Source of the DNA: Sulfurovum lithotrophicum
Lineage (GTDB): Bacteria > Campylobacterota > Campylobacteria > Campylobacterales > Sulfurovaceae
Direction of reading: 5' to 3'
DNA length: 64,000 nucleotides
Assembly: GCF_000987835.1 (NCBI RefSeq)
Contig: NZ_CP011308.1
Location: forward strand, 2,046,001 to 2,110,000
Numbering within the stretch: position 1 is the stretch's first letter; each line of letters begins with the position of its first letter. The position numbers and the translations under genes are program-made. Shown in pieces: positions 20,145 through 61,824 of the stretch. The notes under the pieces were generated by a model. It worked only from the letters and a program-made list of their open reading frames with translations. It did no database searches and was not told the origin of the DNA.

Positions 20145-20452
20145 AAGTATCCTCGCAATCGCCATCATGACGACGGCGTAATTGGTAGGATTATATCGAA
20201 AAGTTTGTTAGGTTTTCGTGAAGGTTGGAATTTTTTCTTTCTCATGATAGTTTTTTGTCTACATATTTTGAGTAAGTATGCATACTAAAATGTAATTCTT
20301 TCTGGGAATATTAATAACAAAAATCTCTGAAATTGAAAGCCCTGTTTTATCAAGAAAAACAAGGATTCTATTCAACTATTATCCTTGTCTAAGGAAATAA
20401 TTATTATAATAATTTTGAATTTATTCAAAATCAAAACAAAAGGATATAGAAA
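20145..20452 (+). promoter_or_regulatory. Divergent intergenic region with TATAAT box and perfect inverted repeat
   Basis: 308 bp between the aminotransferase start (minus) and the 74-residue gene (plus). TATAAT at 20405-20410 is a likely plus-strand -10 box. Overlapping the expected start site is a perfect inverted repeat ATTTTGAAT-TT-ATTCAAAAT (20412-20431), a candidate operator. No separate gene is seen. Confidence 0.5.
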
Positions 20453-20677
20453 ATGGCTAACATTTCCCAACAAGATATTCAAGATATTAGAGCGCTTGCG
20501 CAAGCGGATAGAGCATTTGCCCAGACAGTAAAAAAAGAGCGAGAATTGACAAAAAAAATCAATGATGCGGAGAGCGGTCTTAGCAACCTTGATGCAGATA
20601 CGGTCGAAGCACTTATAGAAGAGAGAAAAGAAATGAGACGTGAGATCCGTACCAAACTGCAAGAAAGCCGTGCATAA
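20453..20677 (+). CDS. Small helical protein, 74 residues
   Basis: The start has AAAGGA 10 nt upstream and a convincing -10 box further up. The product is almost all charged helix (AQTVKKERELTKKINDAES, EERKEMRREIRTKLQESRA), probably a short coiled coil. No family recognised. It is a single-gene unit closed by a strong terminator at 20694-20720, so it is expressed on its own; abundance and regulation could be notable. Confidence 0.65.
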   Translation: MANISQQDIQDIRALAQADRAFAQTVKKERELTKKINDAESGLSNLDADTVEALIEERKEMRREIRTKLQESRA

Positions 20678-20693
20678 TTTTCATTAATGTAAA

Positions 20694-20720
20694 TCTGATT
20701 AAAGATTTTCTTTAATCAGA
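20694..20720. terminator. Strong bidirectional-type terminator
   Basis: TCTGATTAAAG (20694-20704) and CTTTAATCAGA (20710-20720) form a perfect 11-bp stem with a 5-nt loop. It lies 17 bp after the 74-residue gene and 51 bp beyond the stop of the converging sulfotransferase gene, so it can serve both. Confidence 0.75.
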
Positions 20721-20771
20721 CGACTTTCTCCTCCTTTATTTCATCAATTTTCAATCACCTATAAAAAGTTT

Positions 20772-23108
20772 TTATATTTTTGCGCTTTTGACTATTTCAT
20801 TATGCATGTCAAAGTCATAATGCTCTTCTATAATCTTCCGGTTCTCATCAGACAGAATTCTTTGTTTCTTTTCCAGGCTTTTGCTCTTTTCCAAAAAAGT
20901 CTCGACTTTACTCTCCAGCGCTGCAGTCCAGTCGACATCCAAGTATGCGAACAGTTTTTTAAAGTTATCTATGGACTTATATATTGTCTCATATTCCACG
21001 ACATAGATGGAGTCTTTGAATCTTGGGTCTTTCAGTGCCTCCAGTGTACGCATATTTGCTACATTTGCCTCCTGGCATGCAGCCAATGTCCCACGATTCC
21101 CAAGCCAGCCTTTATCCAGCCCGTCCCGTGCCCATTTTGCTCTCTGCTCATAGGAATATGCCACATCGTAGATATTACGTGATATATGTACAACCCTGAT
21201 ATCATCCGGCTCATAATTCTGTACAGTGATCGGCCAACTTACAAAAAAACGGGGTCGTTTATCTCCAATATACTTTGAACGGCCTACTTTCTTTCTGAGT
21301 GCTTTATTTTGCTGATTCAATTCCTTACTCGTAAATACCGGTGAAAAGAGATACTCCTCCTGAAACATATTGGGATGATATCCCAAAGCATAATTGTATC
21401 GTTCCAGGAATAATCCTATATCATCTGAAAGGTTAAGAAGATCTCCCAGTGCCGTAGTTCCGGAGCGGGGATTTCCGCTTACGATCAGGGTTTTCTGTGA
21501 TATTTCCTTTTGATCGCCCAGGAAATATACGCCTGCAACATCTATACTGTTTAATTTATCAGGATTTGATTCCTTCAACTGTACATATTTTGAACGCATC
21601 AATTTTTCAATCTCTTTTCTGTCATAATCTATCCAGGATGTATAGACCATCAGACGTTCCAGGTCAAGGAATGAACTCGCATACATTTTTACGACCAGTG
21701 CATCCATCACCCGTTTAAATAACGATATGTTTTCCAACAGTTCTGCGTAAATAAAAAATCTTGAAATATCTCCCAATTGTTTACTGTTCCGTTCTATTTG
21801 GTTTAGCAGGGCAAGCTCTTCCCCTTTGGGGACAGTTGCGAACAGAGACTGAAGATAGTAGTGCCTGATAAGAAAATTACTTCCGTAGATATCCAGTTTA
21901 TTCTGAATAAGATCAATGCATTCCAAATATCGTTCATTAAGATATAAAGTCTCAACTTTCCCGATCATCTCTGCCGTTTCAGCATCCACTTCATCAATTG
22001 TTTCTGAAGTATCACCTCCCATACGCTGCTCGATTACCAGAAGCAGAACATTAAATGCCCGAAGTGCCTGCTTTACGACAGGATTGCTGCTCTTTTTTGC
22101 TTTGTCAAGTTTTTCTATATAAAATGACTCCAACCCCTTTTCCGGAGAGTTTCTCAATACATATTCTGTCAATTTCAAAATTCTTTCCGGTGTCAGAGGT
22201 TCATAAACAGCTTGCTTGTCTTCAGATGTTTCACGGGGAAACATAAAACCATCCGGACGATGCAATATCTCTTGTGCAATAGCATGATTCTTTTCCCAGT
22301 AAAGTGCATTTATTTTGTGTATCAACTCTTTAGAAGCAAGTGGATAGACCGGTCCACCCTGGGCATAATATTCTTTTGAATACTGGATCAATCCCTGATC
22401 GATTGCCAGGTTTGTTTCGGGCTCCACATCTCCGTCACAAAGTTGATTTACCAAGAGTTTATATTCTACCGCATCTCTGCAATAAGGGATATAAGAGAAA
22501 GTCTCCGGCATATCAAACTCTGAGGAATTTACGATGCCTATCTGAGAAAGAAAGTCAGAATAGACTTTATTTTCCAAAAATAGATCTTGCCATACCGGCT
22601 GAAGAATCATTTTGTCTCCAGAATAAAGTGAAAACCATTTTTCCAATAATCTGTATAAATAAAAATGTGTACTTTTATTTTTATAGAACTTCTCCACTTC
22701 TATGGAAAAAGTCTCTTTATAATCTGAGAATCTGATCTTGTGGATATAATTCAACATCAGACGTTCGAATTGGGGTCCCAAGCAAACAATGATTGTAGCT
22801 TCTGGAAAAAGCTGATGTGTTTCGTCCGGAAAACGAAAAAAGTCATCACTGGAAAGAAGCAAAGTATCTTCACTGTTTCCACTATAAAGTTCTTCAACAG
22901 CCTCTACTGCCGCCTTTTTTCCCTTCTGAACATAGAGTGCCATCAGTCCATTTTCATTGCCCGATGCCAGGATTTGTGTTGCATCTGTCCCATGTGCAGG
23001 ATATTTATATCCCCGTGCTTTCAATACTGTTCTGTTGGCAAGCAAAAAATGCTGTATATCCCCTGTCCCCGTCATAGGAATACCTATATGTAAAAATACC
23101 CTTTTCAA
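20772..23108 (-). CDS. Large two-lobed sulfotransferase-family protein
   Basis: 778 residues. The N-terminal 250 residues resemble the other island sulfotransferases (FLHIGIPMTGTGDIQHFL), but the P-loop Lys of HIGxxKTGT is replaced by Met. The middle (about 300-500) is helical and TPR-like. The C-terminus (from about 530) is a second, intact sulfotransferase: VSGNPRSGTTALGDLL binds the 5'-phosphosulfate of PAPS, and VVHISRNIYDVAYSYEQRAK fits the 3'-phosphate site. It probably sulfates a glycan in the cytoplasm. Start is TTG at 23108 with GAGGTG upstream. First gene of the sulfotransferase island, convergent with the 74-residue gene. Confidence 0.75.
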   Translation of the reverse strand: MKRVFLHIGIPMTGTGDIQHFLLANRTVLKARGYKYPAHGTDATQILASGNENGLMALYVQKGKKAAVEAVEELYSGNSEDTLLLSSDDFFRFPDETHQLFPEATIIVCLGPQFERLMLNYIHKIRFSDYKETFSIEVEKFYKNKSTHFYLYRLLEKWFSLYSGDKMILQPVWQDLFLENKVYSDFLSQIGIVNSSEFDMPETFSYIPYCRDAVEYKLLVNQLCDGDVEPETNLAIDQGLIQYSKEYYAQGGPVYPLASKELIHKINALYWEKNHAIAQEILHRPDGFMFPRETSEDKQAVYEPLTPERILKLTEYVLRNSPEKGLESFYIEKLDKAKKSSNPVVKQALRAFNVLLLVIEQRMGGDTSETIDEVDAETAEMIGKVETLYLNERYLECIDLIQNKLDIYGSNFLIRHYYLQSLFATVPKGEELALLNQIERNSKQLGDISRFFIYAELLENISLFKRVMDALVVKMYASSFLDLERLMVYTSWIDYDRKEIEKLMRSKYVQLKESNPDKLNSIDVAGVYFLGDQKEISQKTLIVSGNPRSGTTALGDLLNLSDDIGLFLERYNYALGYHPNMFQEEYLFSPVFTSKELNQQNKALRKKVGRSKYIGDKRPRFFVSWPITVQNYEPDDIRVVHISRNIYDVAYSYEQRAKWARDGLDKGWLGNRGTLAACQEANVANMRTLEALKDPRFKDSIYVVEYETIYKSIDNFKKLFAYLDVDWTAALESKVETFLEKSKSLEKKQRILSDENRKIIEEHYDFDMHNEIVKSAKI

Positions 23109-23405
23109 TCTTCACCTCTTTAGCAGATTCACTACCCAGTCTTTAGGCAGTAAAAATATATAAATCTCTTTGAAATGCATGCTATCATAGATATCATTTT
23201 TTTTTACTTACATGTATGGGATCATTGCGCAGGGAGAAAGCACACTTTAAATTCGGGTAATATTCAACCTAATATGACTCACAGAGCCTGTTGCAGTACC
23301 TTTAGTTTTTTTAGGATATACTCTTATAAATATAATTACTTTAGAATATCTTTTCTAAAACAACATAACACTAATTCATTTATAGAGAGATTCAGGAGAA
23401 CGGTT
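23109..23405. promoter_or_regulatory. Divergent promoter region of the sulfotransferase island
   Basis: 297 bp between two TTG-initiated genes pointing apart. TATAAT at 23331-23336 is a plausible -10 box for the plus-strand gene, 70 bp before its start. The frame is open through much of it, but the encoded residues are not family-like, so I see no further gene here. Confidence 0.4.
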
Positions 23406-24656
23406 TTGTCCAAAAAACATCTTTTTTTACATATAGGAACAGAAAAAACAGGTACTACCAGTATCCAATCAACATTGCGTCATAATGAAATTATACTGAA
23501 AGCCCACAGTATTCTTTTCCCAAGTTCACCTCTGTTAGGTGGCAACTATAGCGGCTTTGTATACTCTTTTTTAGAACCGGAAGAGATGATCACAGTGCTG
23601 AAACAGGCAGGTGCCGGAGAATATGAAGGGGTTTTCAGGGACAACCCCCATTTCATTTTAGACACTTTAAGCAAACAGATCAGATCATCAGAATGCCAGA
23701 CTGTTATTATTTCTTCTGAACTGCTTCATAGTCGCATTACCACCGATGAAGAAATTAAAAAAATTAAAGCATGGGCAGAAAAGGAATTTGACGAGATCAC
23801 GGTTGTCTGTTACCTGCGAAGACAGGTAGATATGATGATCAGTGCTTTTTCAACACGGCTAAAAGAAGGCGGGGATGTAAATGCCATGATCCCCGAACTC
23901 TTTGAAAATTTCATCGATCATTTGACAAAGGAAGAAGAACTTCCACACTATATTGACTACAGGAAAATGCTTGATCAATGGTCACGCTATTTTCCTGATA
24001 TGGTATGCCGTGAATTTTCGCGTGATACAATGCTGGATGGAGATGTCGTCAAAGATTTTCTCTCGTTGGTAGCACCTCAATTGCAGATGGAGCAGATTGA
24101 AATACCTCAGGAAAAGAATCAGACACTGGATGGAAAGGTCCTTGAACTATTGGCAAAGACAAATCAATATATTCCAAAATTCATCAATAATACTGTCAAT
24201 GCCAAGCAGAGCCTGCTGGTAGATTTCTTTGAGCAAATACCGGCTGAAACAAAAATGCTTCCCAGTCTTGAAATGGCAACAAGCTTTCAAAACTTTTTCA
24301 AAGAAGACAATCAGTACCTTTCGGAAAAATATTTTAACAACCAGGCCATATTTAAGGGGCCAATGAAGTTCGGTGAAGGATATAAAAGCGGTTTGACCCC
24401 TGAAGAGATTGCAGATATATTTGTTGCATTATGGCAAAAAGTAAAAATACATCTTAATCGGCTCAATGCAGAGAACAAGTTCCTCAAAGCTGAGATCGCT
24501 TTTTCCCAGCAGGATTACAAAAAGGCCCTGACACTGCTCAATCAGTCCATGGCAAACGGTATCAGGCTTCCCGAAGCAATTGCAAAACGCAAAGAGATCT
24601 TTGCTATCAACAAACAAAAACAGGCGCATATGAATAAAAAGCCTGTAGCTAATTGA
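23406..24656 (+). CDS. Sulfotransferase-like protein with C-terminal helical extension
   Basis: 416 residues from TTG 23406, which has AGGAG 7 nt upstream. The frame is open further upstream, but this start aligns with the paralogue at 24670 (both begin SKKHLFLHIGTEKTGTTSIQ). That string is the PAPS-binding P-loop. A second shared block, TVIISSELLHSRI, and ITVVCYLRRQVDMMISAFST, matches the 3'-phosphate region. Beyond the paralogue's end it has a TPR-like tail (NKFLKAEIAFSQQDYKKAL). Substrate unknown; a surface glycan is likely from context. 13 bp separate it from the next gene. Confidence 0.75.
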   Translation: MSKKHLFLHIGTEKTGTTSIQSTLRHNEIILKAHSILFPSSPLLGGNYSGFVYSFLEPEEMITVLKQAGAGEYEGVFRDNPHFILDTLSKQIRSSECQTVIISSELLHSRITTDEEIKKIKAWAEKEFDEITVVCYLRRQVDMMISAFSTRLKEGGDVNAMIPELFENFIDHLTKEEELPHYIDYRKMLDQWSRYFPDMVCREFSRDTMLDGDVVKDFLSLVAPQLQMEQIEIPQEKNQTLDGKVLELLAKTNQYIPKFINNTVNAKQSLLVDFFEQIPAETKMLPSLEMATSFQNFFKEDNQYLSEKYFNNQAIFKGPMKFGEGYKSGLTPEEIADIFVALWQKVKIHLNRLNAENKFLKAEIAFSQQDYKKALTLLNQSMANGIRLPEAIAKRKEIFAINKQKQAHMNKKPVAN

Positions 24657-24669
24657 GAGGGAGCGATAC

Positions 24670-25782
24670 ATGTCAAAAAAACATCTTTTTCTTCATATAG
24701 GAACAGAGAAAACGGGGACTACCAGTATACAGGCAGCACTCAGACAAAATACCCAGAAATTAAAAGAGTATGATATTTTTTATCCCCGTATGCCATTATT
24801 GACCAGTAATCATACAGGTTTCACCTTCTCTTTTTTGGGACAACAGGCCATGTCTATGCTTTTACGCCGTGCGGGGTACGATCATCTCTTAGGCAAAGCA
24901 AAGAAAAACTCTCATTTCATACTGGATATCCTTGATGAAAAATTCAAGGAATCCGGCTGCAACACCATGATCATCTCTTCAGAGCTGTTACACAGCCGTA
25001 TTTCCAATGCAGACGTTATCCTCGATATCAAAAAGTGGGCAGACGAGCGATTTGATGAAGTAACGGTTATTTGTTATCTGAGAAAACAGGAAGATCTGAT
25101 GGTAAGCAGTTTTTCCACAATGGTAAAGACCGGCTCCAACTGGCATGAAACACTTGTAGAACAATTTGCGGAGTTCCTGGCACCACGACAGGGAAAACTC
25201 AAGCATTTTTATGATTATAAGGGCATACTGGATATGTGGTCAAATGCCTTCCCTGGACTGATATGCAGAGAGTTCGCCCGTAACAAGATGCTTGGCGGCG
25301 ATGTCGTAAAGGATTTTTTCTCCTTGATAGATCCTTCCATCAAGACAGAAGAGTTGAACAAGACCACAGAAAAAAACACCTCTTTGGATGCCAAAGCAAT
25401 GGAATTTCTCATACTTCTCAACCGCCGTGTACCTTCAGTAATAGATGGCAGAATCAATCCTCTTCGAAAGAATATGGTACATTTTTTTGATGCAGTTCCT
25501 ACAAAATCAAAAATGAAATTTACAGAGGAACAGGTTCTTAAGATCAGAGAATATTTTAAAGAGGACAATGCCTATATTCAGGAAAAGTATTTCAAAGGGG
25601 AACCTATTTTTGAATATAAAGAGTCATCCGGAGAAAAATATCATCCCGGTCTGACTACAGATGAAGCCGTCCAAGTCTTTACCGAAGTCTGGGATCAAAT
25701 CTCTACATCAATCCAGGAAACTGAAGAGGAAAATAGAAAATTGAGATTACAGAAGAATACACTGAAATCAAACAATAAGTAG
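24670..25782 (+). CDS. Sulfotransferase-like protein, paralogue of the preceding gene
   Basis: 370 residues. P-loop HLFLHIGTEKTGTTSIQAAL at residues 5-24, MIISSELLHSRIS, EVTVICYLRKQEDLMVSSFS, CREFARNKMLGGDVVKDFF: every block has a close counterpart in the gene upstream, so the pair arose by tandem duplication. It ends in a short coiled coil instead of a TPR-like tail. The ATG has GGGAGCG upstream. Same operon as the genes on either side (9 bp to the next). Confidence 0.75.
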   Translation: MSKKHLFLHIGTEKTGTTSIQAALRQNTQKLKEYDIFYPRMPLLTSNHTGFTFSFLGQQAMSMLLRRAGYDHLLGKAKKNSHFILDILDEKFKESGCNTMIISSELLHSRISNADVILDIKKWADERFDEVTVICYLRKQEDLMVSSFSTMVKTGSNWHETLVEQFAEFLAPRQGKLKHFYDYKGILDMWSNAFPGLICREFARNKMLGGDVVKDFFSLIDPSIKTEELNKTTEKNTSLDAKAMEFLILLNRRVPSVIDGRINPLRKNMVHFFDAVPTKSKMKFTEEQVLKIREYFKEDNAYIQEKYFKGEPIFEYKESSGEKYHPGLTTDEAVQVFTEVWDQISTSIQETEEENRKLRLQKNTLKSNNK

Positions 25783-25790
25783 GATGTGAA

Positions 25791-27299
25791 ATGTTTTTTA
25801 AAAGTACAAAAAGACTTAACCGTAAAAAGATCTCGGAATACTTTGACCCGGAATATTACCTACAGTCGAACAAAGATGTAAGGGAGCATGGCGCCAATCC
25901 GCTTGAACATTATTTCGTTGCAGGCCAAAAAGAGGACCGGGCACCGAACAGATGGTTCTTTCCAGAGTTTTACAGAAGTTCAAACCCCGACCTGGAGAAG
26001 GAAGATGACCTTTTTCTGCATTACCTGCTTCACGGATGGAAAGAGAAACGTCTGCCGAATCCCTTTGCCACCCCTTCACTCTATGATGAAGTGACAGACC
26101 TCGACGGCATAAAAGCATATTTTACCGAAGAAAAAATGGCTTCACTCAAAAAAGAACAACAAAAAAGAGCTGAGCACGAAAAACGCAAAACGGAAAAAGA
26201 GGCTAAACGTCTTAAACAGAAAGAGAAAGAGGCCGGTATCATACAGAAATATTTTGATCCTGAATATTATCTTGAGGTCAACAAGGATGTGAAGGAAAAA
26301 GGTATGGATCCCCTTCATCACTATTTGAATAGTGGCGGCAAAGAGGAGTACCGCATACCCAACAGATGGTTTGCTCCTGCCTTTTACCTTAACAACAATC
26401 CAGGATTGAAAAAAGCCGGAGTCGATCCTTTTCTGCATTACCTGCTTCACGGATGGAAAGAGAAACGTCTGCCGAATCCCTTTGCCACCCCTTCACTCTA
26501 TGATGAAGTGACAGACCTCGACGGCATAAAAGCATATTTTACCGAAGAAAAAATGGCTTCACTCAAAAAAGAACAACAAAAAAGAGCTGAGCACGAAAAA
26601 CGCAAAACGGAAAAAGAGGCTAAACGTCTTAAACAGAAAGAGAAAGAGGCCGGTATCATACAGAAATATTTTGATCCTGAATATTATCTTGAGGTCAACA
26701 AGGATGTGAAGGAAAAAGGTATGGATCCCCTTCATCACTATTTGAATAGTGGCGGCAAAGAGGAGCACCGCATACCCAACAGATGGTTTGCTCCTGCCTT
26801 TTACCTTAACAACAATCCAGGATTGAAAAAAGCCGGAATCGATCCTTTTCTGCATTACCTGCTTCACGGATGGAAAGAGAAACGTCTGCCGAACCCTCTT
26901 GTCGATATCTCTCTCTATGAAAGGGCCTCTACACTCGATGAGATCGATGCGTATCTAACAGAAGAAAGACTGGATGCCTTAAGAGAGAGAAAAGAGAATG
27001 AAATGGGGTATGTCAGTTCTATTTACGACCTTAACGGAGAGACCTGTATTGAAGGGTGGGCAATTACAGGGTCTGAGGAAAAAGCGACTGTAGATATTTT
27101 TGTTAATGGGACACTCTATCAGACAGTAGTTGCTGAAACCTTTCAGGATATCCTGAAAGAACATGCAGTTGGCAATGGTGAATATGGCTTCACCGTCAAA
27201 CTACCGAAATCACTTCTGAAAAAACAGCATAACAGCATACAGGTAAAATCGAAATTCACGGGAAAAGATCTTATTAACAGTCCGCAGATATACCCATAG
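25791..27299 (+). CDS. Repeat protein of glycosyltransferase-associated modules, no catalytic domain
   Basis: 502 residues. It holds three copies of a two-part module: FDPEYYLxxNKDV ... PLHHYLNSGGKE, then IPNRWFAPAFYLNNNPGL ... FLHYLLHGWKEKRLPNP. Such YYLxxNPDV / HYLxxG repeats are known from the ends of glycosyltransferases and sulfotransferases. Charged coiled-coil linkers (KKEQQKRAEHEKRKTEKEAK) separate them. The last 100 residues (CIEGWAITGS ... GEYGFTVKLP) match the beta-sandwich that often follows such modules. No signal peptide or enzyme motif is seen, so a cytoplasmic scaffold is likely. AGGATG precedes the ATG. Confidence 0.75.
   Translation: MFFKSTKRLNRKKISEYFDPEYYLQSNKDVREHGANPLEHYFVAGQKEDRAPNRWFFPEFYRSSNPDLEKEDDLFLHYLLHGWKEKRLPNPFATPSLYDEVTDLDGIKAYFTEEKMASLKKEQQKRAEHEKRKTEKEAKRLKQKEKEAGIIQKYFDPEYYLEVNKDVKEKGMDPLHHYLNSGGKEEYRIPNRWFAPAFYLNNNPGLKKAGVDPFLHYLLHGWKEKRLPNPFATPSLYDEVTDLDGIKAYFTEEKMASLKKEQQKRAEHEKRKTEKEAKRLKQKEKEAGIIQKYFDPEYYLEVNKDVKEKGMDPLHHYLNSGGKEEHRIPNRWFAPAFYLNNNPGLKKAGIDPFLHYLLHGWKEKRLPNPLVDISLYERASTLDEIDAYLTEERLDALRERKENEMGYVSSIYDLNGETCIEGWAITGSEEKATVDIFVNGTLYQTVVAETFQDILKEHAVGNGEYGFTVKLPKSLLKKQHNSIQVKSKFTGKDLINSPQIYP
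26012..26845 (+). repeat. 417-bp in-frame tandem duplication (two units plus a partial third)
   Basis: Unit 1 is 26012-26428 and unit 2 is 26429-26845. They differ at two bases only (TAC/CAC giving Tyr/His, and GTC/ATC giving Val/Ile). A partial third copy runs to about 26892. 417 is 139 codons, so gain or loss of a unit keeps the frame. The near-identity points to a very recent duplication or ongoing homogenisation. Confidence 0.95.
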
Positions 27300-27324
27300 T
27301 AGAATAGGATCATCAAATAATACC

Positions 27325-29271
27325 CTATGAAGATCCCAGGCGCGCAAGAGCATTGAAGGTCTCTTCAAGCTCTTGGGGGGTCCACACCTTCGACCATTTT
27401 TCATAGATCTTCCATTTGAATTGATTCAGTACCACATTGCTTAAGGCATTCGCACCCGCGCCTCCTGTACCTGATGTACCGAAAATATGATAGGTTGCAC
27501 TGATCTTGTTCAGATAATAGAAGTCAGTATGCTGAGAGACCTGTAACCAAAAATCCCAATCCTCATAGATTTCCAAAGATTCATCAAAACGGCACCCCAT
27601 TTTGATCAACTTCGTGGAAAACAGTACGGCATGGAACGGTATGTAGTTCCCCCGTCTCAGAAGAGCCGCACTATAGGGGTGGTTGTAGTATCGGTTGACA
27701 TCCAATCCGTCACCAATACGTACAGCACTGTAAACAGCAAGAAGTCCTTCATTCCTAAGTATCACTTTTAAAAGATTATCAATATGACTATGATCGAACG
27801 TATCATCATCATCAAGAAAGATTGCATATTGTCCATTGACCATTTTCAGAAGCTCATTTGCCGCACCAGCCCTTCCCTTCGATTCAGTATTGTTCTTTAT
27901 AAAACACCGTTCAAAATCGAATCTCTCGACAATGTAATCGATCTTTTCTCCACCATCATTGACAATATTAACTTCAATATTCTGATAATCTTGCATCTGA
28001 ACCGATACCAAAGCTTTTTCAAGAAGCTCAGGTCTGTTTTTGGTACGAATCAATACAGAGACAAGTGGGAGCTTTTGTGCATATAACCTATTGTGGTATT
28101 TGTGAAAATGCGCATAGTAATAACTCATGAGATGAGAATCAATATCTTCAAAATGATAAAATGCTTCGGCATACTGAATATGTCCAGGCAACGTAAAGGC
28201 ACGCAGCTTATTCATAGAGGTGATCGTACCTATATAATCAAGCTGTCCCTGTTGAGATGTATATTGTCTCATTACTTCTGTTTTCAGGTCCATATATGCA
28301 GTTATATCTATCAATGTATTGGCTGGAGACTGGTTTGCGATCTCATAAGAAAAGACATTTCCCCGATAGGCCATAGCCTGCAGAGCACTCCATACCAACC
28401 ATGCAGTTGTCCTGTGATCGGGGTGATACTCCAAAGGAGATGGAAAAAAAACATTGATAGGTTTGTATTGCTGAATCAGCTGAATGATTCTGTAGATATT
28501 GACACTGTTCAGGACCAACCCCTGATCGGGTGCACCGAAGAAGTGGATATCATCTATCCCAAGCATCTCTGCAGCTTGCCGCAGTTCTTCCTTGCGTATC
28601 TTTTCATCTCCTCCTATCGCACCATCTGTCATCATCACAAGATTGACCACGGTACCGCTTTCTTTAATCTTTAAAATGGATCCCCCCATACTGAAGGTCT
28701 CATCATCCGGATGCGGCGCGAATATCAAGGTAGCACCACTAGGAAGGGGTGAGATTTCAAATGGTATAAATGCATATGTATCATCCTGTGCAACATATGG
28801 CTTCCCTGCTGCTATTGCACCCTTTTCACTCCCTTGCCTCATGATATTGTGATCATCGATATCTTCAATATCCTCGGGTGACTTTATCTCTTTCTCCCAG
28901 AGCACAATCTCGGTACCTTCCCTGACATACCTCCCCGGTTCCTTCTTCGCTGCCTCTGTTTTTTCCGTTGCACTGTTCCAATAGCGGTTGCCATTCAGGA
29001 TTTCCGCATATCCAAACTGACAAAAGTGATCGAAACCGGAAGTGAATATTCCTTTTAGCACAGCTTCCTGTACTTCGGGGAATTTCTCTAAATATTCCCC
29101 TTCATCAAATGCTTTATACGCATAGTGGAAAAGGCTGCGTCCACTTTTTATTCTCTCCAGTCCAAACTGTTCTAAATAAGTTTCTACATTAGGAAAGTCT
29201 CTATTCTCTATGGCCTTTTTAACATCCGGATTCGCATCCAGGTAAGCTCTTTCATCAAAAAATACGATCAT
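27325..29271 (-). CDS. PIG-L/LmbE deacetylase fused to GT2 glycosyltransferase
   Basis: 648 residues. Residues 1-95 hold two copies of the same YLxxNPDV-type module as the gene opposite (FFDERAYLDANPDV and AFDEGEYLEKFPEV). A PIG-L domain follows: FAPHPDDETFSMGGSIL (zinc site) and PLEYHPDHR. From about 400 it is a GT-A family 2 domain: VSVLIRTKNRPELLEKAL, NDGG, and the DDDD nucleotide-sugar metal site in YAIFLDDDDTFD. One protein could thus deacetylate an N-acetylated sugar and transfer a sugar. Start is ATG 29271, just after an in-frame TTG. It converges on the repeat protein gene with 25 bp between. Confidence 0.85.
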   Translation of the reverse strand: MIVFFDERAYLDANPDVKKAIENRDFPNVETYLEQFGLERIKSGRSLFHYAYKAFDEGEYLEKFPEVQEAVLKGIFTSGFDHFCQFGYAEILNGNRYWNSATEKTEAAKKEPGRYVREGTEIVLWEKEIKSPEDIEDIDDHNIMRQGSEKGAIAAGKPYVAQDDTYAFIPFEISPLPSGATLIFAPHPDDETFSMGGSILKIKESGTVVNLVMMTDGAIGGDEKIRKEELRQAAEMLGIDDIHFFGAPDQGLVLNSVNIYRIIQLIQQYKPINVFFPSPLEYHPDHRTTAWLVWSALQAMAYRGNVFSYEIANQSPANTLIDITAYMDLKTEVMRQYTSQQGQLDYIGTITSMNKLRAFTLPGHIQYAEAFYHFEDIDSHLMSYYYAHFHKYHNRLYAQKLPLVSVLIRTKNRPELLEKALVSVQMQDYQNIEVNIVNDGGEKIDYIVERFDFERCFIKNNTESKGRAGAANELLKMVNGQYAIFLDDDDTFDHSHIDNLLKVILRNEGLLAVYSAVRIGDGLDVNRYYNHPYSAALLRRGNYIPFHAVLFSTKLIKMGCRFDESLEIYEDWDFWLQVSQHTDFYYLNKISATYHIFGTSGTGGAGANALSNVVLNQFKWKIYEKWSKVWTPQELEETFNALARLGSS

Positions 29272-29473
29272 CAATTCATCTTTCCGTTCATTTTAACTAT
29301 AAAAAAATTATTATAACCATAAGTTAATATGTTAAAACTTACGAAAATATTTACGATTGCAAGTCGTTGATATTGGAATCATTAAGATAATTGGCTACAA
29401 TAATACTTTGCAAAAGACACTACAAAACAAAACTTCAATAGTGGCATGGAAAGATCTGTCAAAGGACTATAAA

Positions 29474-30739
29474 ATGAAAAGAAAGTGTATTATTCATATC
29501 GGTATGCATAAGACAGGTTCATCCTCCATACAGCAGAGTCTCTTTCATAATTTGAAGGATGACACTTTCAGCTATTTGGATATGGGCATTCCCAATCATA
29601 GTATTTCCATGTCAATGCTCTTCAGAAATTCCTCCAGAAAGAATCCAGAAACTGTCAATTTAAAAAATAAATTAATTAAAAGTATTAAAAACAGTCATTC
29701 AATTATGATTATTTCTGCTGAAGCTATTTCCATGTTCAGCAAAGAGGATTTAAAATATTTGAGAGATTTTTTACTAGATTATTTTAAAGAAATTCAGATC
29801 GTAGGGTATATACGTTCTCCAAAGTCTTATATGGAAAGTTTTTTTCAGCAGCGTGTCAAAGGGGGGCTGGTTTCTTTTGACCTGGAAAAATATATCTACC
29901 CAAACTACAGAAAAAGATTTGAAAAGTTTGATGATGTTTTTGGGCATCAAAATGTCCAGTTCTGGAAATTTGACCCAAAACATTTCTATAAAGGAAATGT
30001 TGTTCTGGATTTCTGCAGAAAAATTGGAATAGATTTTCAAGAGGATCAGACAATCAGAATAAATGAATCCTTATCTCGTGAAGAAGTCGCAATATTATAC
30101 ACATATGGAAAACAGAAGACAAGGCATATCCAAAGCCCTGCCGTTATGCAAAAAAATATGAAAATAATAAAGAAGATCAAAAAGCTCAAAGAACATAAGT
30201 TTAGATTTTCTCCCACACTTATCACCCCCATTCTTGAGAAAAACAGTCGTGACATTCAGTGGATGGAAGAGCGCCTGGGTATATCTTTGAAAGAAAAAAC
30301 CACAAAAAGCGAAGCCGATGTCAAAAGCGAGGTGGATCTTTTAAAAATCGATAAAAAGACTCTTCAAAAACTAAGAATACTCACGGGTGAATTATCCCCA
30401 AAAGAAGATACATATGATGACTCACAAGAGGAAATCATCACCTTGATCAATATATTGCAAAAAGCGAATAAACCAAAAAAGATGGGCAGTACACCTTTAT
30501 CATTGGCAAAAAAGCTTAAACAAAAACACAAAAATGTGCTAAAAGAGATCAATGAAGACCAAATAGCTACGGTGATTGAAAAAACATTTTCACATGTGGA
30601 ACATCAACTTAGAAATACCGATGGGTACAGAATCAATATTCCTCAGCTTGGCAGTTTTGATATTCAAATACTGAAAAAACAAAATACCCGAGGTACCATC
30701 TCCTTCAGCCAAGATAAAATAACAAAAGGTGGCGCATGA
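29474..30739 (+). CDS. Sulfotransferase-like protein with HU-like C-terminal domain
   Basis: 421 residues from ATG 29474 (AAAGGAC 7 nt upstream). The P-loop is CIIHIGMHKTGSSSIQQSLF, with IMIISAEAISMFS and IVGYIRSPKSYMESFFQ as the later sulfotransferase blocks. After about residue 270 a charged linker leads to a C-terminal stretch (DQIATVIEKTFSHVEHQL, then GYRINIPQLGSFDIQILKK) whose helix-strand pattern and PxLGSF turn recall the HU/IHF fold. The latter match is by eye and tentative. Base composition is very AT-rich. Divergent from the PIG-L/GT2 gene. Confidence 0.7.
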   Translation: MKRKCIIHIGMHKTGSSSIQQSLFHNLKDDTFSYLDMGIPNHSISMSMLFRNSSRKNPETVNLKNKLIKSIKNSHSIMIISAEAISMFSKEDLKYLRDFLLDYFKEIQIVGYIRSPKSYMESFFQQRVKGGLVSFDLEKYIYPNYRKRFEKFDDVFGHQNVQFWKFDPKHFYKGNVVLDFCRKIGIDFQEDQTIRINESLSREEVAILYTYGKQKTRHIQSPAVMQKNMKIIKKIKKLKEHKFRFSPTLITPILEKNSRDIQWMEERLGISLKEKTTKSEADVKSEVDLLKIDKKTLQKLRILTGELSPKEDTYDDSQEEIITLINILQKANKPKKMGSTPLSLAKKLKQKHKNVLKEINEDQIATVIEKTFSHVEHQLRNTDGYRINIPQLGSFDIQILKKQNTRGTISFSQDKITKGGA

Positions 30740-30821
30740 AAAAATTTTGTTATAATAATTTTTTACATAAAAGTTTTCATTTCTAATCACAAATACTCAT
30801 ACCAGGGAAAGGGTAAACAAA

Positions 30822-31490
30822 TTGCAAAAAAAAATTTTATTTTTCCATGTTCCAAAAACTGCCGGGAGTAGTTTTCGCTATGCCTTGGAAAAAATTATTC
30901 CAAAAGAAAAAATTTTTTATGACTATGGGATCTTGAATGACCTGACCAAACCTGTTATAAAACAGTGGTGTAAAGGTGAAATTAAAACAACCCATTTTGA
31001 AAAAGTGATTGAAAAAAGAGATATTATGCTGTATGGCGGGCATATAACCCATATGAGATATCAGAATTTTCTACCCGCCTTTAAACGTGTTACATTTATT
31101 CGGGATCCACTTCAAAGAGCCTACTCAGAGTATAACCACCGCAAAGGACGGGGCGATTTCGAGATAAGCTTCGAGGAGTTCATAGAAAGGCCTCAGTTCA
31201 TCAATACTTTGCACAAAGTTTTTGGAAGTGCAGAGAATCTTAAAGACCTGGATTTTATCGGATTCACCGAATATTACCAGGAATCCATAGAGCTTTTTAA
31301 TAAACAGTTTGGATATGATATAAAGGTCATTGTAGCCAATGTACGCAGAAACTCCCTTGACGATCAGCATCATGTCTCCCAGGCTACTATTGAACGTTTC
31401 CAAACTTTAAACAAAGATGATATTGACCTCTATAACTCTTTATTGGAAGTGTTCAAAAAGAGGATCACTACAAACCAAAATATAGATTAA
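30822..31490 (+). CDS. Sulfotransferase family 2-type protein
   Basis: 222 residues. KILFFHVPKTAGSSFRYAL is the HVPKTAG P-loop of the heparan/chondroitin-type sulfotransferase family, and VTFIRDPLQRAYSEYNHRKG is its RDPxxRxxSxY 3'-phosphate motif. This is a different subfamily from the HIGxxKTG proteins next to it. It is a complete short form. Start is TTG with GGGAAAGGG upstream. The acceptor is probably a polysaccharide; that is inferred from the family and neighbours. Confidence 0.8.
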   Translation: MQKKILFFHVPKTAGSSFRYALEKIIPKEKIFYDYGILNDLTKPVIKQWCKGEIKTTHFEKVIEKRDIMLYGGHITHMRYQNFLPAFKRVTFIRDPLQRAYSEYNHRKGRGDFEISFEEFIERPQFINTLHKVFGSAENLKDLDFIGFTEYYQESIELFNKQFGYDIKVIVANVRRNSLDDQHHVSQATIERFQTLNKDDIDLYNSLLEVFKKRITTNQNID

Positions 31491-31529
31491 TCATATATTT
31501 TTTTAAATATCTCTAATAAAGGATTCAAA

Positions 31530-32501
31530 ATAAAAATAAAATTACTGCTTCTCTTGATCTTTACAACTTTTCTCTTCGCAGGAAAATGTGAAATGTGGTA
31601 TGAGGACAATAACCTGGGACAAGCGGGTTATTTCCCCCCGGATGCCAAAGAAAAATTTATCGATCCACAAACATGGAAAGCATCAAGAAAAAAAATGGAT
31701 GTCTACCTGGTTCGTGCAAATGCACTTTATATCAGAAAAAACGGTTTGACAGACTATTTCCTTAAAAACAAAATGTTAAAAGTACTGAAAGACTCCAAGA
31801 TAAAGCTGGCACTGAATGTACGGGGGGCAACACTTACACAAACAAGTAGGAAACGAGAGAAAATCCGTACCAAAGAGATAAAACTCATTGAAAAACTTGA
31901 AAGCATGGGTATACATATTGACTCCATCAATTTTCAGAGTGCCTTGAGCAAATCCGTCAAATTCACATCGCACAAAGATAAAGTATATGCATATCCCATG
32001 AAGCAAAGGATCAAAGATATTGTATCCTATATAAAAACAGTCCATCAAAAATATCCACATATAAAATTCGGTCTGATCGATGCACTACCTGCAAAAGGTT
32101 ATCCTTATCGAAAAGCGTATAAATATCTTGTTGAAAGCATGCAAAAAGCACATTTGACACTACACCACATCATACTGGACCTGCCAAATGACTTCATAGA
32201 AAAACATCATAAAGGTGTCACATGGAAGCAGGTAATCGATGTGGAAAAATATGTTCATAACGATCTCCATCTCAAATATGGAAAAATATTTCATGATGCC
32301 AAAGCAGGAAAGACGTCAGACCGGTTGTTTTTCACCAAAGTAATGCAGATGGCAACCCGCTATAAGAAAGAGGGAGGGGACCCGGACTATTGTCTGTTGA
32401 TGAGCTGGTACCCTCACCCTTCACGTACCATTCCAGAGACGGAAAAGTATACGCAGATGTATCTGTTTTTAAAATTGTCTGAACGTATGCAGAATCATTG
32501 A
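31530..32501 (+). CDS. Secreted protein of unknown function, possible AUA start
   Basis: The first conventional start is TTG 31554, which leaves half a signal peptide and no RBS. Reading back in frame to ATA 31530 gives MKIKLLLLLIFTTFLFAGKC, a textbook signal peptide, with AAAGGA 7 nt upstream. So either AUA is used or an ATG has mutated. The mature part alternates strands and helices (KIKLALNVRG, HIDSINFQSAL, IKFGLIDALPAKG, LHHIILDLP, CLLMSWYPHPSRTIPETE), which suggests a TIM-barrel such as a glycoside hydrolase, without a motif I can name. It lies 39 bp after the sulfotransferase gene. Confidence 0.6.
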   Translation: MKIKLLLLLIFTTFLFAGKCEMWYEDNNLGQAGYFPPDAKEKFIDPQTWKASRKKMDVYLVRANALYIRKNGLTDYFLKNKMLKVLKDSKIKLALNVRGATLTQTSRKREKIRTKEIKLIEKLESMGIHIDSINFQSALSKSVKFTSHKDKVYAYPMKQRIKDIVSYIKTVHQKYPHIKFGLIDALPAKGYPYRKAYKYLVESMQKAHLTLHHIILDLPNDFIEKHHKGVTWKQVIDVEKYVHNDLHLKYGKIFHDAKAGKTSDRLFFTKVMQMATRYKKEGGDPDYCLLMSWYPHPSRTIPETEKYTQMYLFLKLSERMQNH

Positions 32502-32617
32502 TATTTTTTTTGGCTCTAAACAAAAAGAACTTTTTACATCTTGAGTTCACCTGAAAGCAGTCACTGCCCCTTTCTTTTATACTCTCTTTATACTATAATA
32601 AAGAAAAGGATCATATT

Positions 32618-33052
32618 ATGCTAAAAAATATATTTTTTAGTTTGCTGAATATCATTATCCTGACAGGATGCGTAGAGCTTTCAGGAGGATCAGGAGACTT
32701 TCCCTCGGCAATAGAAGGTCATAAGTGGAAACTGGTCAGTTTTGGAGACAATAGGGTAGTCGCTACAGACAGAATAACACTCTCTTTAAAGAGTGGACAC
32801 TACTCAGGATGGAGCGGATGCAACAGTATGAGCGGAACATACCTGTTGGATGGAGACAAACTTGTCTTTGATACTGACACTCCTTTTCATTCCGGGGTTT
32901 CAACAATGATGGCCTGCTCAAACATGGGATTGGAAACAAAATTTCATGAAGCTATACAAAAGGTTAATCACTACAGGATTGAAGGAAAGTATTTGATCTT
33001 CCTTGACAAAAATCATGAAATATTGGTATTTGTCAGAACAACAGGATCATAG
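32618..33052 (+). CDS. META-domain (HslJ-like) lipoprotein
   Basis: 144 residues. The N-terminus is a lipoprotein signal with lipobox LTGC at residues 15-18. The rest is one META domain: GHKWKLVSFGDNRVV, WSGCNSMSGTYLLDGDKL, and STMMACSNMGLETKFHEAI. The family (HslJ) is tied to envelope stress or outer-membrane function; the precise role is unknown. AAAGGAT precedes the ATG. Last plus-strand gene of the island. Confidence 0.82.
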   Translation: MLKNIFFSLLNIIILTGCVELSGGSGDFPSAIEGHKWKLVSFGDNRVVATDRITLSLKSGHYSGWSGCNSMSGTYLLDGDKLVFDTDTPFHSGVSTMMACSNMGLETKFHEAIQKVNHYRIEGKYLIFLDKNHEILVFVRTTGS

Positions 33053-33095
33053 CACTGCAGACTATACCTTCTCACCCCCTTGTCTTTTGTTATTC

Positions 33096-34220
33096 TTATT
33101 TTTCCTGTGATGGCAGACATACTTGTTTTTTATTGGGGAATGGTACTTTTCTGTTCCCTTTTTTTATTATTTTTTTTAATTGCATGTTTTCAATATAAAG
33201 TTTCTCGATGCCTTTTATTGCAGCCAGTAACAATTTATCCAACTCTTCATAAGCTAAACACTTCTCTTTACAGCATGCCGGTGATATTGTTTTCTTTTCA
33301 AAAGCAGTTTTACTCCACCACCTTTCATCTCCCATATTCATTTTTCTAGAATCAGGATCTATAAATTCCATTAATTTTATATTGCTCTCTTTAGTCTTTT
33401 TTAAGATCCTATCTACCTGTTCTTCACTTAAGACCCATGGTGCTTTTGAAAAAGTACTATCAAGTTTCAAATAGCGTGATAAAATAAAGTCCAATTGATT
33501 TTCATGTTCTGATTTGCGAAGCTCTCTATGTTGTTGATAAAATCGAAGAATCTCTTTTGGTAAACTACTATTAGCTCTATTATCTTGATCTGAAGTCAGT
33601 TCAACACCTATCATATTATAGAAATCCTCTACAATATCATTAGGTAAAATTTTCACTTTTAAGTTTTCAGGACCTACTATATTTCTCCATTCTTCTAATT
33701 CATTAGACCATTTTGAAACACGCTTATCTACCATTCTATCAATATAACTATCTAAGTTTTGATTTGACCAGGCACCCCATTGCCACCAGGCAGAATTTAT
33801 CCATTCAACAGGATTCCGTGCATAACAGATGACTTGTGCCCGCATATTCAGTTTTTCCAATATAGCATTTTCTCTAAAAATATCTGCTCTTTTTACCCAT
33901 GATTCACATGACAAAACAAGTAAAGAATTATTGTTATTGGATAATTTAGATAGTTTTACACGAAGCGCATTAAGTATTTCATCAGAGAATCCCTTAAAAT
34001 AAGTCAGGCTTGCCGTAGAAAGAGAACGAGAAGCAGTAAAAAGCAATCGTTCCCGTAAATTATTTCCTGAATAAAGCTGACCGTTTTTATCAATAGTAAT
34101 ATATTTTATATTTTTATATTTTTTCCTATTTGCTTTCAAAATCGGAGTGTTTGATAATGAATATTGAAGAGCTGTACTCCCACATTTTCCAAAACCTATG
34201 TGTATTATTGTTTCTACCAT
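33096..34220 (-). CDS. Sulfotransferase-like protein
   Basis: 374 residues. ETIIHIGFGKCGSTALQYSL is a variant HIGxxKxGST P-loop, LLVLSCESWVKRAD fits the ISSE block of its relatives, and AQVICYARNPVEWINSAWWQW fits the 3'-phosphate binding region (YxRNP). So it belongs to the same superfamily as the other five, though divergent. The C-terminus is charged and low complexity. Base composition is AT-rich, lower GC than core genes nearby, which supports transfer. Right-hand end of the island. Confidence 0.7.
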   Translation of the reverse strand: MVETIIHIGFGKCGSTALQYSLSNTPILKANRKKYKNIKYITIDKNGQLYSGNNLRERLLFTASRSLSTASLTYFKGFSDEILNALRVKLSKLSNNNNSLLVLSCESWVKRADIFRENAILEKLNMRAQVICYARNPVEWINSAWWQWGAWSNQNLDSYIDRMVDKRVSKWSNELEEWRNIVGPENLKVKILPNDIVEDFYNMIGVELTSDQDNRANSSLPKEILRFYQQHRELRKSEHENQLDFILSRYLKLDSTFSKAPWVLSEEQVDRILKKTKESNIKLMEFIDPDSRKMNMGDERWWSKTAFEKKTISPACCKEKCLAYEELDKLLLAAIKGIEKLYIENMQLKKIIKKGNRKVPFPNKKQVCLPSQEK

Positions 34221-34573
34221 TTTAATCTTTTTTCTTATTAATAAAACCAGAGCATTACAGTATTTAAGTGAATTTCTCTAATGCAAGCAACGAAATATTT
34301 GATCTTTATAGCTTACAAGCCAAATCGTAATTAATCCGTATGCACCTTTTGATATGTTTTTCTATCTACGAATAAAATAAATTATTGGAATTATACCATA
34401 AGTGAATGATTCGGTTACACCTATGCTATGAATGTTTGGATTAGAGTACATTTGTATGTTTCCCCAAGTGGGCTTGGGGAAAAGAAAAAGTATTGGCTTT
34501 TATCTGGCCAACATCATAGAATTTCACATAATACCCCCTCCCACTTCGGTCAGGGAAAGATTCGGATGTTTTC
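34221..34573. other. Long AT-rich intergenic region
   Basis: 353 bp between the sulfotransferase start and the protease stop. It contains the hairpin at 34459-34482 and presumably the minus-strand promoter of the sulfotransferase gene. The short open frame crossing 34441-34656 overlaps the protease gene in another frame and has no RBS, so I see no gene here. Confidence 0.5.
34459..34482 (-). terminator. Perfect 10-bp hairpin downstream of the protease gene
   Basis: TTTCCCCAAG (34459-34468), loop TGGG, CTTGGGGAAA (34473-34482). It is about 90 bp after the protease stop on the minus strand. The stem is strong, but there is no U-tract in either direction, so it may be an RNA-stabilising 3' end instead of a classical terminator. 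Confidence 0.5.
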
Positions 34574-35746
34574 TTACAATCCGCAATTAGTTGGATAATT
34601 AGTACATACAGTATCAAGAAGCGGTACGATATTGCCATCAGTAAACGGTGTTGCACCCTGCTCTTTTGGATCAGAACTTGTCCACCCCCAACTGGTTACG
34701 GCCACAACAACATCATTAGTTGGATATGTACCGGCTGTCGTACCGCTCAAAGAAGCAATCTCTCCATAATTAACTAACCATGGTCCACCGCTGCTTCCTC
34801 CGGTTTCTCTCGATCCGATCATAATAGCCATTGCCCCAAACTGTGTTGTTTTTTCACCCTGTGAATCATTCGCCTGCATTTGCCAGCCGTTATCATGGGA
34901 TACAGGATATCCCAACTGATGTATTAATGTCAAGGAACCATCGTTCAACCCGTCTGTATATCCCCATCCATTGTAGCCGTAGCCATACCATCCGGTTCGT
35001 TCACCCGGGAACATATCTGTCCCGGTATTGGGATTGGTCCTTTTTTTCATGACGATCACACCGACATCGTAGTTGTTGACAACATTGTCGCCTTCCGGCG
35101 GATTAATATAACCGTCCATCACATATGCAGTCTTGTAGCCATACCTTCCGAATGGCGCCTTCTCACCGACAGTGCTGTCCTTGTAATATGCCGGTATGAA
35201 TTCCCAACCGGAATAATATACATCATTTTCATTGTCATATATACAATGTGCAGCAGTCACCACCACTCCCGGTTTAATGGAAGAAGCAGAACATACATAC
35301 GTCGCACTGCCTATTTTGAAAAAGAGTTTCCCTGTTACTCTGTTCGGATATTTACGGGAAAGTCTCTGGTCGTACATATCGACCCTGCTCGTGGCAAACG
35401 GACGATTACTTGTACCGAATTCTGCCGGCTGTACATCAGTCTGCCCCTTTACGGCCTTCACTGGTTTTCCGAGACTTTCATGCAGCATTTCACCCGTACC
35501 CCTATTCCCAGATACAACCCCCGGTTCTCCTATCTCGACAGAAGGAACCTCTGAAGTGCTTTTCCTCTCCATACTATTGAAATCCACTCTTTTATCCATC
35601 GGGATAGCATTGGCATAATCCAATGTACCGAATGTGTCAGCTGTTTGTGCAGGTGCTTCTATCACACCTTCTACCGCAACTGCCTGTGACACCATCAATG
35701 CGGCACCGACAGTCAAACCTGCCATTAAATTTTTTATGTCTCTCAT
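34574..35746 (-). CDS. Secreted trypsin-like serine protease
   Basis: 390 residues with a signal peptide (LMAGLTVGAALMVSQAVAVE). After a pro-region of about 130 residues, the S1 domain carries the full triad: H167 (VTAAHC), D227 (NNYDVGV), S319 (GGSSGGPW). C152 and C168 can form the usual His-loop disulfide. It is probably exported to the periplasm or surface. Start at 35746 has AAGGAAAAAG upstream; the longer open frame before it is not signal-like. Its place at the island edge is suggestive but not proof of a shared role. Confidence 0.85.
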   Translation of the reverse strand: MRDIKNLMAGLTVGAALMVSQAVAVEGVIEAPAQTADTFGTLDYANAIPMDKRVDFNSMERKSTSEVPSVEIGEPGVVSGNRGTGEMLHESLGKPVKAVKGQTDVQPAEFGTSNRPFATSRVDMYDQRLSRKYPNRVTGKLFFKIGSATYVCSASSIKPGVVVTAAHCIYDNENDVYYSGWEFIPAYYKDSTVGEKAPFGRYGYKTAYVMDGYINPPEGDNVVNNYDVGVIVMKKRTNPNTGTDMFPGERTGWYGYGYNGWGYTDGLNDGSLTLIHQLGYPVSHDNGWQMQANDSQGEKTTQFGAMAIMIGSRETGGSSGGPWLVNYGEIASLSGTTAGTYPTNDVVVAVTSWGWTSSDPKEQGATPFTDGNIVPLLDTVCTNYPTNCGL

Positions 35747-35937
35747 ATCTTTTTCCTTTTTTAAAAACTTGACAGAAACCTGCCCTTCATTTATTGTACC
35801 ACAAAAAGCAGTATTGTTGCAAGGTAAAGACAACTGAACGCACTACTATAGTAAAAACTTATCTTTAAAAAGAAGAGAAAAAAAGATGCTGCATAAAAAA
35901 GTCATCTGGAGAATAAAAATATTTTTGAAGGAGTCAA

Positions 35938-35958
35938 GGGAGCGCCCAAAGCACTCCC
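35938..35958 (-). terminator. recA terminator hairpin
   Basis: On the minus strand GGGAGTGC, loop TTTGG, GCGCTCCC: 8-bp stem with one G-U pair, starting 19 bp after the recA stop. A T-rich stretch (ATATTTTT) follows some 20 bp later. Confidence 0.6.
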
Positions 35959-35976
35959 TGTATGAATACACTGTAT

Positions 35977-37026
35977 CTACCGGTCAGCAGAGGATATCTC
36001 ATCCTGATCCATTGCAAGCTTTTCACCAAAACCAAGAGCCTCTTTCACCTTTGCTTCTATCTCGACTCTGAGCTCAGGATTCTCTTTGAGTGTCAGCTTG
36101 GCATTCTCTTTCCCCTGACCGAGCTTCTCAGCACCGTAACTGAACCAGGCACCTGACTTATCGACGATATCCATCTTGATACCATAATCGATCAACTCAC
36201 CGATATAGGAGATCCCCTCACCGAACATGATATCGAATTCCGCCTGCCTGAAGGGCGGCGCTACTTTGTTCTTCACCACTTTGGCTTTCACCCGGTTCCC
36301 GATCTGCGATTCTCCCTGTTTCAATGTCGCAATACGTCGGACATCAATACGTACCGAACAGTAGAATTTCAGTGCATTTCCGCCTGTGGTCGTTTCGGGT
36401 GAACCGTAACCCATTGTACCTATCTTCATACGGATCTGGTTGATAAAGATCACGGTAGTATTCGTTTTATGCAAAATGGCCGTAAGTTTACGAAGCGCCT
36501 GTGACATTAGACGGGCCTGCAGCCCTACATGCGTATCTCCCATATCCCCTTCTATCTCGGATTTGGGAGTTAGTGCCGCCACGGAATCCACGATGATCAG
36601 ATCGACGGCACCCGAACGCGTCAGTGTTTCAAGCACATCCAGTGCCTGCTCTCCGAAATCGGGCTGGGAGACCAGAAGATTGTCCGTATCGACACCCAGA
36701 TTCTTTGCGTAGACCACATCCAGTGCATGTTCCGCATCGATGAAAGCACAGACCATACCCTCTTTCTGTGCCGAAGCGATCGTCTGTAGGGCCAGTGTCG
36801 TCTTTCCCGAAGACTCAGGCCCGTAGACTTCGACGATACGTCCCTGGGGAATGCCTCCGATCCCCAATGCCATATCTAGTCCCAGCGAGCCTGTGGAGAT
36901 TGCCGCGATCGGCTCGAACTCTTTGTCTCCGAGTCGCATCAAGGTTCCCTTTCCAAAAGTCTTGTCTATCTGCTTGATCGCCATATCCAGTGCTTTTTGC
37001 TTATTCGCATCCATTGCCATTGTCAT
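35977..37026 (-). CDS. recA: Recombinase RecA
   Basis: 349 residues. Walker [15 protein letters not shown], Walker [12 protein letters not shown]1/L2 loops ([37 protein letters not shown]) are all intact. It performs strand exchange in homologous recombination and acts with the AddAB complex encoded at 3.8-8.9 kb. Two ATGs six bases apart follow AAGGAAAAGGAT; 37026 is chosen, 37020 is equally possible. Divergent from the mqnD-like gene. Confidence 0.97.
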
Positions 37027-60881: not shown

Positions 60882-60890
60882 AAGTGTCCC

Positions 60891-61193: not shown

Positions 61194-61272
61194 TTTGTAT
61201 CCTTTTTTTAAATTTTTATGTATATCTTTTTTTACTCAATTCATTTCTCAGTCTACTGCGATAGAGGTTGAA

Positions 61273-61731: not shown

Positions 61732-61824
61732 TGTGTTTCCTTTAATTTGAATTTGGATTGCAGGAGGAGTCACCTCCGCTTGCAATATTTTATTGTTTTA
61801 TTGTGAAGTAAAAGTGAATTTCAC

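Follow-up and report, generated by a model that had tools for sequence, protein, structure and literature searches.

What would Sulfurovum lithotrophicum do with six sulfotransferase genes set close together, and which molecule would their products sulfate? The genes lie at positions 20772-34220 (the island) of a 64-kb window, the whole stretch of DNA that was analyzed, in a single-contig genome of 2.218 Mb (labelled G000). The answer favored here, with a probability of roughly three in four, is that the island was displaced from the rest of a sulfated surface polysaccharide system, most likely one for a rhamnose-containing capsule with Kps-type ATP-binding cassette (ABC) export. Glycan sulfation by the island enzymes, dependent on 3'-phosphoadenosine 5'-phosphosulfate (PAPS), is well supported by conserved motifs and a structure model.

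All six genes are intact and together encode seven sulfotransferase domains, one of them degenerate. A sequence-only reading of this DNA had listed six sulfotransferase-like genes of at least two subfamilies. The genes are indeed present as long intact frames, and Pfam searches and family alignments divide them among three subfamilies: the Sulfotransfer_3/1 type, the Sulfotransfer_2 type and the HIG ("HIGxxKTGTTSIQ") family. Pfam cut-offs were passed by the C-terminal half of ST778 (Sulfotransfer_3, 3.8e-8; Sulfotransfer_1, 1.2e-6), which is intact and carries the motifs NPRSGTT and RNIYDVAYS, and by ST222 (Sulfotransfer_2, 1.2e-8). ST493, ST370, ST460 and ST374 fell below threshold for the Pfam models Sulfotransfer_1/2/3/4 and had no NCBIfam match. 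These four proteins and the N-terminal domain of ST778 make up the HIG family, for which neither Pfam nor NCBIfam holds a model; any single sulfotransferase model matches at most 8 of 64 relatives at E<=0.01.

The hallmarks of the HIG family are the loop KTGTTSIQ, an SSE motif and R-x7-S. In an alignment of the island members with relatives, H9, G11, K14, Q21, S103, E105 and R138 are invariant and S146 is nearly so; among the 64 relatives, drawn from several phyla, the invariant residues are H9, I10, G11, K14, Q21, E105, R138, S146 and N236. The 5'-phosphosulfate loop with the catalytic lysine, K-[TCA]-G-[TS]-[TS], is intact in all four full-length members, of which the neighbors ST493 and ST370 are 44% identical. 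The 3'-phosphate motif R-x7-S (R138/S146) is kept in the family, with R138 following strand 130-137 of the ST370 model. The N-terminal domain of ST778 is a degenerate member, with the loop HIGIPMTGTGDIQ, in which the loop lysine is replaced by methionine, the 3'-phosphate arginine by glycine and the serine by leucine. A profile of the family matches a solved sulfotransferase from Alicyclobacillus acidocaldarius (3rnl, E=3e-7), although a single-sequence search of the PDB with ST370 gave no match. ST460 has a C-terminal HU-like extension (window 30430-30739; Pfam HU-CCDC81, E=0.012, sub-threshold). Its homologue in the congener G263, 39% identical and located in a cysDNC-kps locus, aligns only to about residue 301, short of the HU/CCDC81-like stretch.

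The sulfate donor could be made by the same genome. One operon at G000:295.1-299.5 kb contains cysD, cysN, a DUF2061-fused adenosine 5'-phosphosulfate (APS) kinase gene, a canonical cysC and cysQ, and is directly followed by rmlACDB. The fused kinase (L006:11427-12149), in which DUF2061 is a membrane domain, is encoded in tandem with the canonical cysC and is conserved in many Campylobacterota. A genome search with PF01507 returned no CysH, only CysD and two weak matches, MnmA and GuaA. PAPS is thus without evident use beyond sulfation, to which it looks dedicated. The cys locus of G000 contains no sulfate permease, and a Campylobacter-type permease query gave a weak match only. Sulfur oxidation, named in the sequence-only reading as the source of the donor sulfate, may contribute, and sulfate is in any case abundant in seawater.

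The HIG family is large and widespread, and its tie to PAPS is suggested by the make-up of operons, by the predicted structure and by a natural contrast in which the loop motif was lost. Among 298 genomes of the phylum, 31 encode the HIG family and 47 a true CysC (score >190 bits). CysC is present in 18 of the 31 genomes with the family, compared to 29 of the 267 without it (Fisher p=7.5e-9). The same holds within the genus (6/7 versus 11/71, p=2.9e-4), where the sole genome with the family that lacks CysC has a stop-ridden fragment as its family member. In six Campylobacter-like genomes, a sulfotransferase gene follows the cysC domain within 60-75 bp, and in one locus (L096) cysC and the sulfotransferase gene overlap by 4 bp within an operon of cysQ, cysD, cysN, permease, cysC and sulfotransferase. 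Where the best homologue in a genome has an intact loop, CysC is always present (16/16 genomes); where the loop is a degenerate TTN[TS]GN, CysC is missing from 12 of 13. A clade with a lost loop (TTNTGNQEKQ) occurs in Campylobacter-like genomes (L023, L026-L031, L033-L038) that mostly lack cysC.

Export genes are also found in the genome. At G000:178.7-182.1 kb (L116) lie genes for a poly-export/SLBB protein, an ABC-2 permease (ABC2_membrane), an ATPase (ABC_tran) and a protein termed KpsE-like from its position and form only (L116:6008-7099). These are followed by glycosyltransferases, two HIG-family sulfotransferases, an RgpF protein bearing the same repeat as the repeat protein of the island, and then eno. 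The sulfation and putative capsule genes of G000 are split over three sites, 178.7-190.8 kb, 286-300 kb and the island. With sulfotransferases, donor synthesis and sugar export, the sulfation system looks complete in the genome, judging by its genes. The surface-glycan sulfation system proposed earlier stands as far as sulfotransferases with PAPS-binding residues, PAPS synthesis genes and a glycan export locus are concerned. Of the two observations that were to refute it, a genome lacking PAPS synthesis genes and P-loop proteins lacking the PAPS pocket, neither was made. The island does not stand alone, however, being one of three dispersed parts.

The dispersal coincides with a rearrangement. 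The island fills the gap between recA and an aminotransferase gene. In about 20 congeners, eno follows recA or no island is found downstream of recA, and in G263 an amidohydrolase gene precedes the aminotransferase gene. In G000, the block from eno (191 kb) to the amidohydrolase gene (285-286 kb) lies at 191-286 kb, with the kps and sulfotransferase genes before it and PIG-L/GT2 and cysDNC genes after it. Both the recA-eno and the amidohydrolase-aminotransferase junctions of the congeners are thus broken (window 20168-36000), which speaks against an insertion into an otherwise conserved site. No mobile-element boundary (flanking repeats, insertion sequence ends or other) was seen around the island, and the 64-kb window contains no tRNA gene. 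The congener G263 holds rml, cysQCC'ND, sulfotransferases, a repeat glycosyltransferase and KpsETMD side by side within about 29 kb, and G349 holds kps, RgpF, sulfotransferases and TIM315 in one stretch. Because these two genomes keep the gene families together, the island is best read, from gene order, as a piece of a locus that was once continuous.

Several points weigh against a displaced part of a capsule system. The island itself has neither an export gene nor a PAPS gene, and its tie to such genes comes from congeners and from the shared genome. The congener loci share gene families with G000 rather than close orthologues, identity being mostly 25-40%. The co-occurrence statistics ignore phylogeny, and the HIG family is present in fewer than one in ten genomes of the genus. 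The members with a degenerate loop look like a single clade, and the contrast in loop loss may reflect one event.

In the proposed mechanism, CysD and CysN would convert sulfate and ATP to APS, which CysC would phosphorylate to PAPS. In the island sulfotransferases, the KTGTT loop and the R-x7-S motif would hold PAPS, and the enzymes would transfer the sulfuryl group, in the cytoplasm, to the growing glycan, either to its hydroxyls or to amines that the PIG-L domain would have freed. CysQ would clear the by-product 3'-phosphoadenosine 5'-phosphate (PAP), and the sulfated chain would leave through the ABC transporter and then, at the outer membrane, through the export protein. The most likely acceptor is a rhamnose-containing, Kps-exported capsule; we infer the acceptor glycan, its rhamnose, the linkage positions and the sulfotransferase activity itself.

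Of the other explanations, the one that survives best, although it is unlikely, is that the sulfotransferases act on a different surface glycan (O-antigen, flagellin or S-layer glycan) that leaves through a second ABC transporter at 494 kb. The surrounding locus (L008, G000:482-500 kb) encodes a Wzm/Wzt-like ABC transporter, gmd/fcl, glycosyltransferases and three sulfotransferase-like genes of its own, making at least two sulfated glycans possible. In addition, degenerate HIG members of Campylobacter-like genomes sit among genes that we take to be of the flagellin-modification type. However, the nearest locus-mates of the island genes in congeners are KpsM/T/E and RgpF/WsaF-type glycosyltransferases, not a transporter of the L008 type. 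Given this second glycan locus, sulfation may extend to more than a single polymer.

The ST370 model (predicted local distance difference test, pLDDT, 91.4) best matches human heparan-sulfate 3-O- and N-sulfotransferases (3-OST and NDST; Z 14.3-15.5), with 221-238 residues aligned at a root-mean-square deviation of 3.2-4.1 and 11-13% identity. Many of the matched chains were solved with PAP or PAPS, and the PAPS-site residues are kept in ST370. The bacterial 3rnl is also among the top structural matches (Z 14.8, 15% identity in the structural alignment), whereas cytosolic sulfotransferases score a Z of about 9. 3-OST and NDST use a glutamate as catalytic base. E105 of ST370 lies directly after the second strand of the model, and by analogy it may serve as the catalytic base. 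The resemblance raises the possibility that the PIG-L/GT2 fusion frees the amines of N-acetylhexosamines and the heparan-type sulfotransferases N-sulfate them, a logic like that of heparan sulfate with unrelated or split genes. The intact PIG-L motifs and the NDST-like predicted fold of ST370 would suit such a pair. NDST carries its deacetylase on the same chain, whereas ST370 lacks such a domain and the gene for the PIG-L deacetylase lies two genes from that of ST370; this variant is considered improbable.

More doubtful still is that the HIG proteins use another donor, as P-loop transferases or kinases, and owe the sulfotransferase label to a resemblance in fold. Foldseek searches with the ST370 model also returned P-loop kinases, zeta-toxin among them, at similar E-values, some HIG proteins have lost the loop, and two such genes adjoin a Cj1415c-like kinase gene. 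The zeta-toxin-like matches were set aside as generic P-loop resemblance, since the top rows of a second structural aligner are all sulfotransferases, with a wide gap in Z between glycan sulfotransferases and the rest; moreover, intact-loop HIG members adjoin cysC and cysQ, and the family profile matches 3rnl. Least probable is a decaying, non-functional acquisition: the GC content of the island is low and uneven (31.7-42%, versus 49-52% in the flanking recA and aminotransferase genes; lowest in ST374, with GC at third codon positions, GC3, of 0.23), it lies at a rearrangement junction, one sulfotransferase domain is degenerate and the distribution is patchy, but all ten island genes are open over their full length, catalytic motifs are intact in six sulfotransferase domains and in PIG-L, and the PAPS operon is kept without other apparent use.

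Features of the island and the adjoining protease gene (window coordinates)
Feature	Position	Strand	Description	Basis
ST778	20772..23108	-	two-domain sulfotransferase	Pfam and alignments
ST493	23406..24656	+	HIGTEKTGTTSIQ-family sulfotransferase, 416 aa after correction to TTG start	alignments
ST370	24670..25782	+	HIGTEKTGTTSIQ-family sulfotransferase	profile, alignment, structure model
Repeat protein	25791..27299	+	FDPEYYLxxNKDV...HY units and beta-rich C-terminal tail	
PIG-L/GT2 fusion	27325..29274	-	PIG-L deacetylase and GT2 glycosyltransferase fusion	Pfam
ST460	29474..30739	+	HIG-family sulfotransferase, 421 aa from ATG	alignment
ST222	30822..31490	+	Sulfotransfer_2-family sulfotransferase; motifs PKTAGSS, RDPLQRAYS	Pfam
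Conserved protein	31554..32501	+	function not assigned, probably exported	homologue in G349
META-domain protein	32618..33052	+	lipoprotein-like	Pfam
ST374	33096..34220	-	HIG-family sulfotransferase, loop HIGFGKCGSTALQ	alignments
Protease	34574..35833	-	trypsin-like	43% identical to protease adjoining cysD, same genome

Two start codons were moved downstream, to the TTG at 23406 and the ATG at 29474; directly 5' of both lies a Shine-Dalgarno-like stretch. The PIG-L/GT2 fusion, as read from the sequence earlier, was borne out by Pfam (E=3e-26 for PIG-L and 4e-20 for GT2), and the PIG-L catalytic motifs HPDDE and HPDH are intact. Its N-terminus carries the same repeat as the repeat protein, and it is 53% identical to a PIG-L/GT2/GNAT protein encoded next to the cysDNC genes. 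The repeat protein contains a 417-bp tandem unit in 2.1 copies with a 99% match (window 26012-26897); this in-frame duplication of 139 residues is very recent. A WsaF-like glycosyltransferase and an RgpF protein of rhamnan synthesis carry the repeat too. The repeat itself was thus correctly recognized, but the label of scaffold is unsupported because the repeat is common to these glycosyltransferases.

The conserved protein at 31554..32501 has a 53%-identical homologue (TIM315) among the sulfotransferases adjoining the kps genes of G349. A single-sequence structure model was poor (pLDDT 48), and a TIM barrel is a tentative impression. The gene lacks an ATG where the homologue has its signal peptide (window 31510-31560); a frame that includes a signal-like stretch starts near AAAGGA in that interval, possibly at a non-standard start codon. 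Paralogous trypsin-like proteases are encoded at both sulfation loci (window 34574-35833 and L006:7761-8933), and the protease next to the island probably travels with the sulfation locus. The right end of the window (59757-64000) contains Sox-type sulfur-oxidation genes.

The sequence-only reading had called sulfated polysaccharides rare in bacteria; sulfated capsules are now less exceptional (PMC11641403, PMC11766843, PMC8205485). PAPS genes and sulfotransferases within a polysaccharide cluster have been termed a hallmark of sulfated polysaccharide synthesis, and sulfated rhamnose was shown by nuclear magnetic resonance in the capsule of Vibrio sp. KMM 8419 (PMC11641403). Like S. lithotrophicum, that strain has dTDP-rhamnose genes, an RgpF-type glycosyltransferase, Kps ABC export, cysC/N/D and several sulfotransferases. 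However, it keeps them in one 95-kb locus rather than at three dispersed sites, and it has three sulfotransferases compared to the six of the island and at least four elsewhere in a system known from genes alone. Cobetia marina KMM 1449 likewise has kpsETMD, cysN/C, cysD, cysQ, rhamnose genes and sulfotransferases, with PAP removal by CysQ; its cluster also has kpsSC, a wcb operon and a sulfate permease, the last of which the G000 cys locus lacks (PMC11766843). The synechan xss cluster of Synechocystis 6803, which directs a bacterial sulfated, rhamnose-containing exopolysaccharide, also has several sulfotransferases of distinct subfamilies. Unlike the system here, it uses Wzx/Wzy rather than ABC export and its sulfotransferases belong to Pfam families; PAPS genes are not mentioned in the cluster (PMC8205485).

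Measured against the Vibrio and Cobetia systems, PAPS genes, sulfotransferases and polysaccharide genes are present genome-wide in G000 and are contiguous in G263. Kps-type ABC export with an outer-membrane export protein is present (L116), and a single gene cluster is not found in G000. By its genes, then, G000 has the content of the Vibrio KMM 8419 and C. marina capsules, which makes it a further case of a system seen before in a few marine bacteria. New are the lineage, a sulfotransferase family that lacks a Pfam or NCBIfam model, and the scattering of the genes.

Finally, no report of sulfated-capsule biosynthesis in sulfur-oxidising Campylobacterota turned up in the literature searched, and the results presented here would extend it to this lineage. 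They also make the HIG family directly testable and provide new candidate enzymes that lie near the heparan sulfotransferases in predicted fold.

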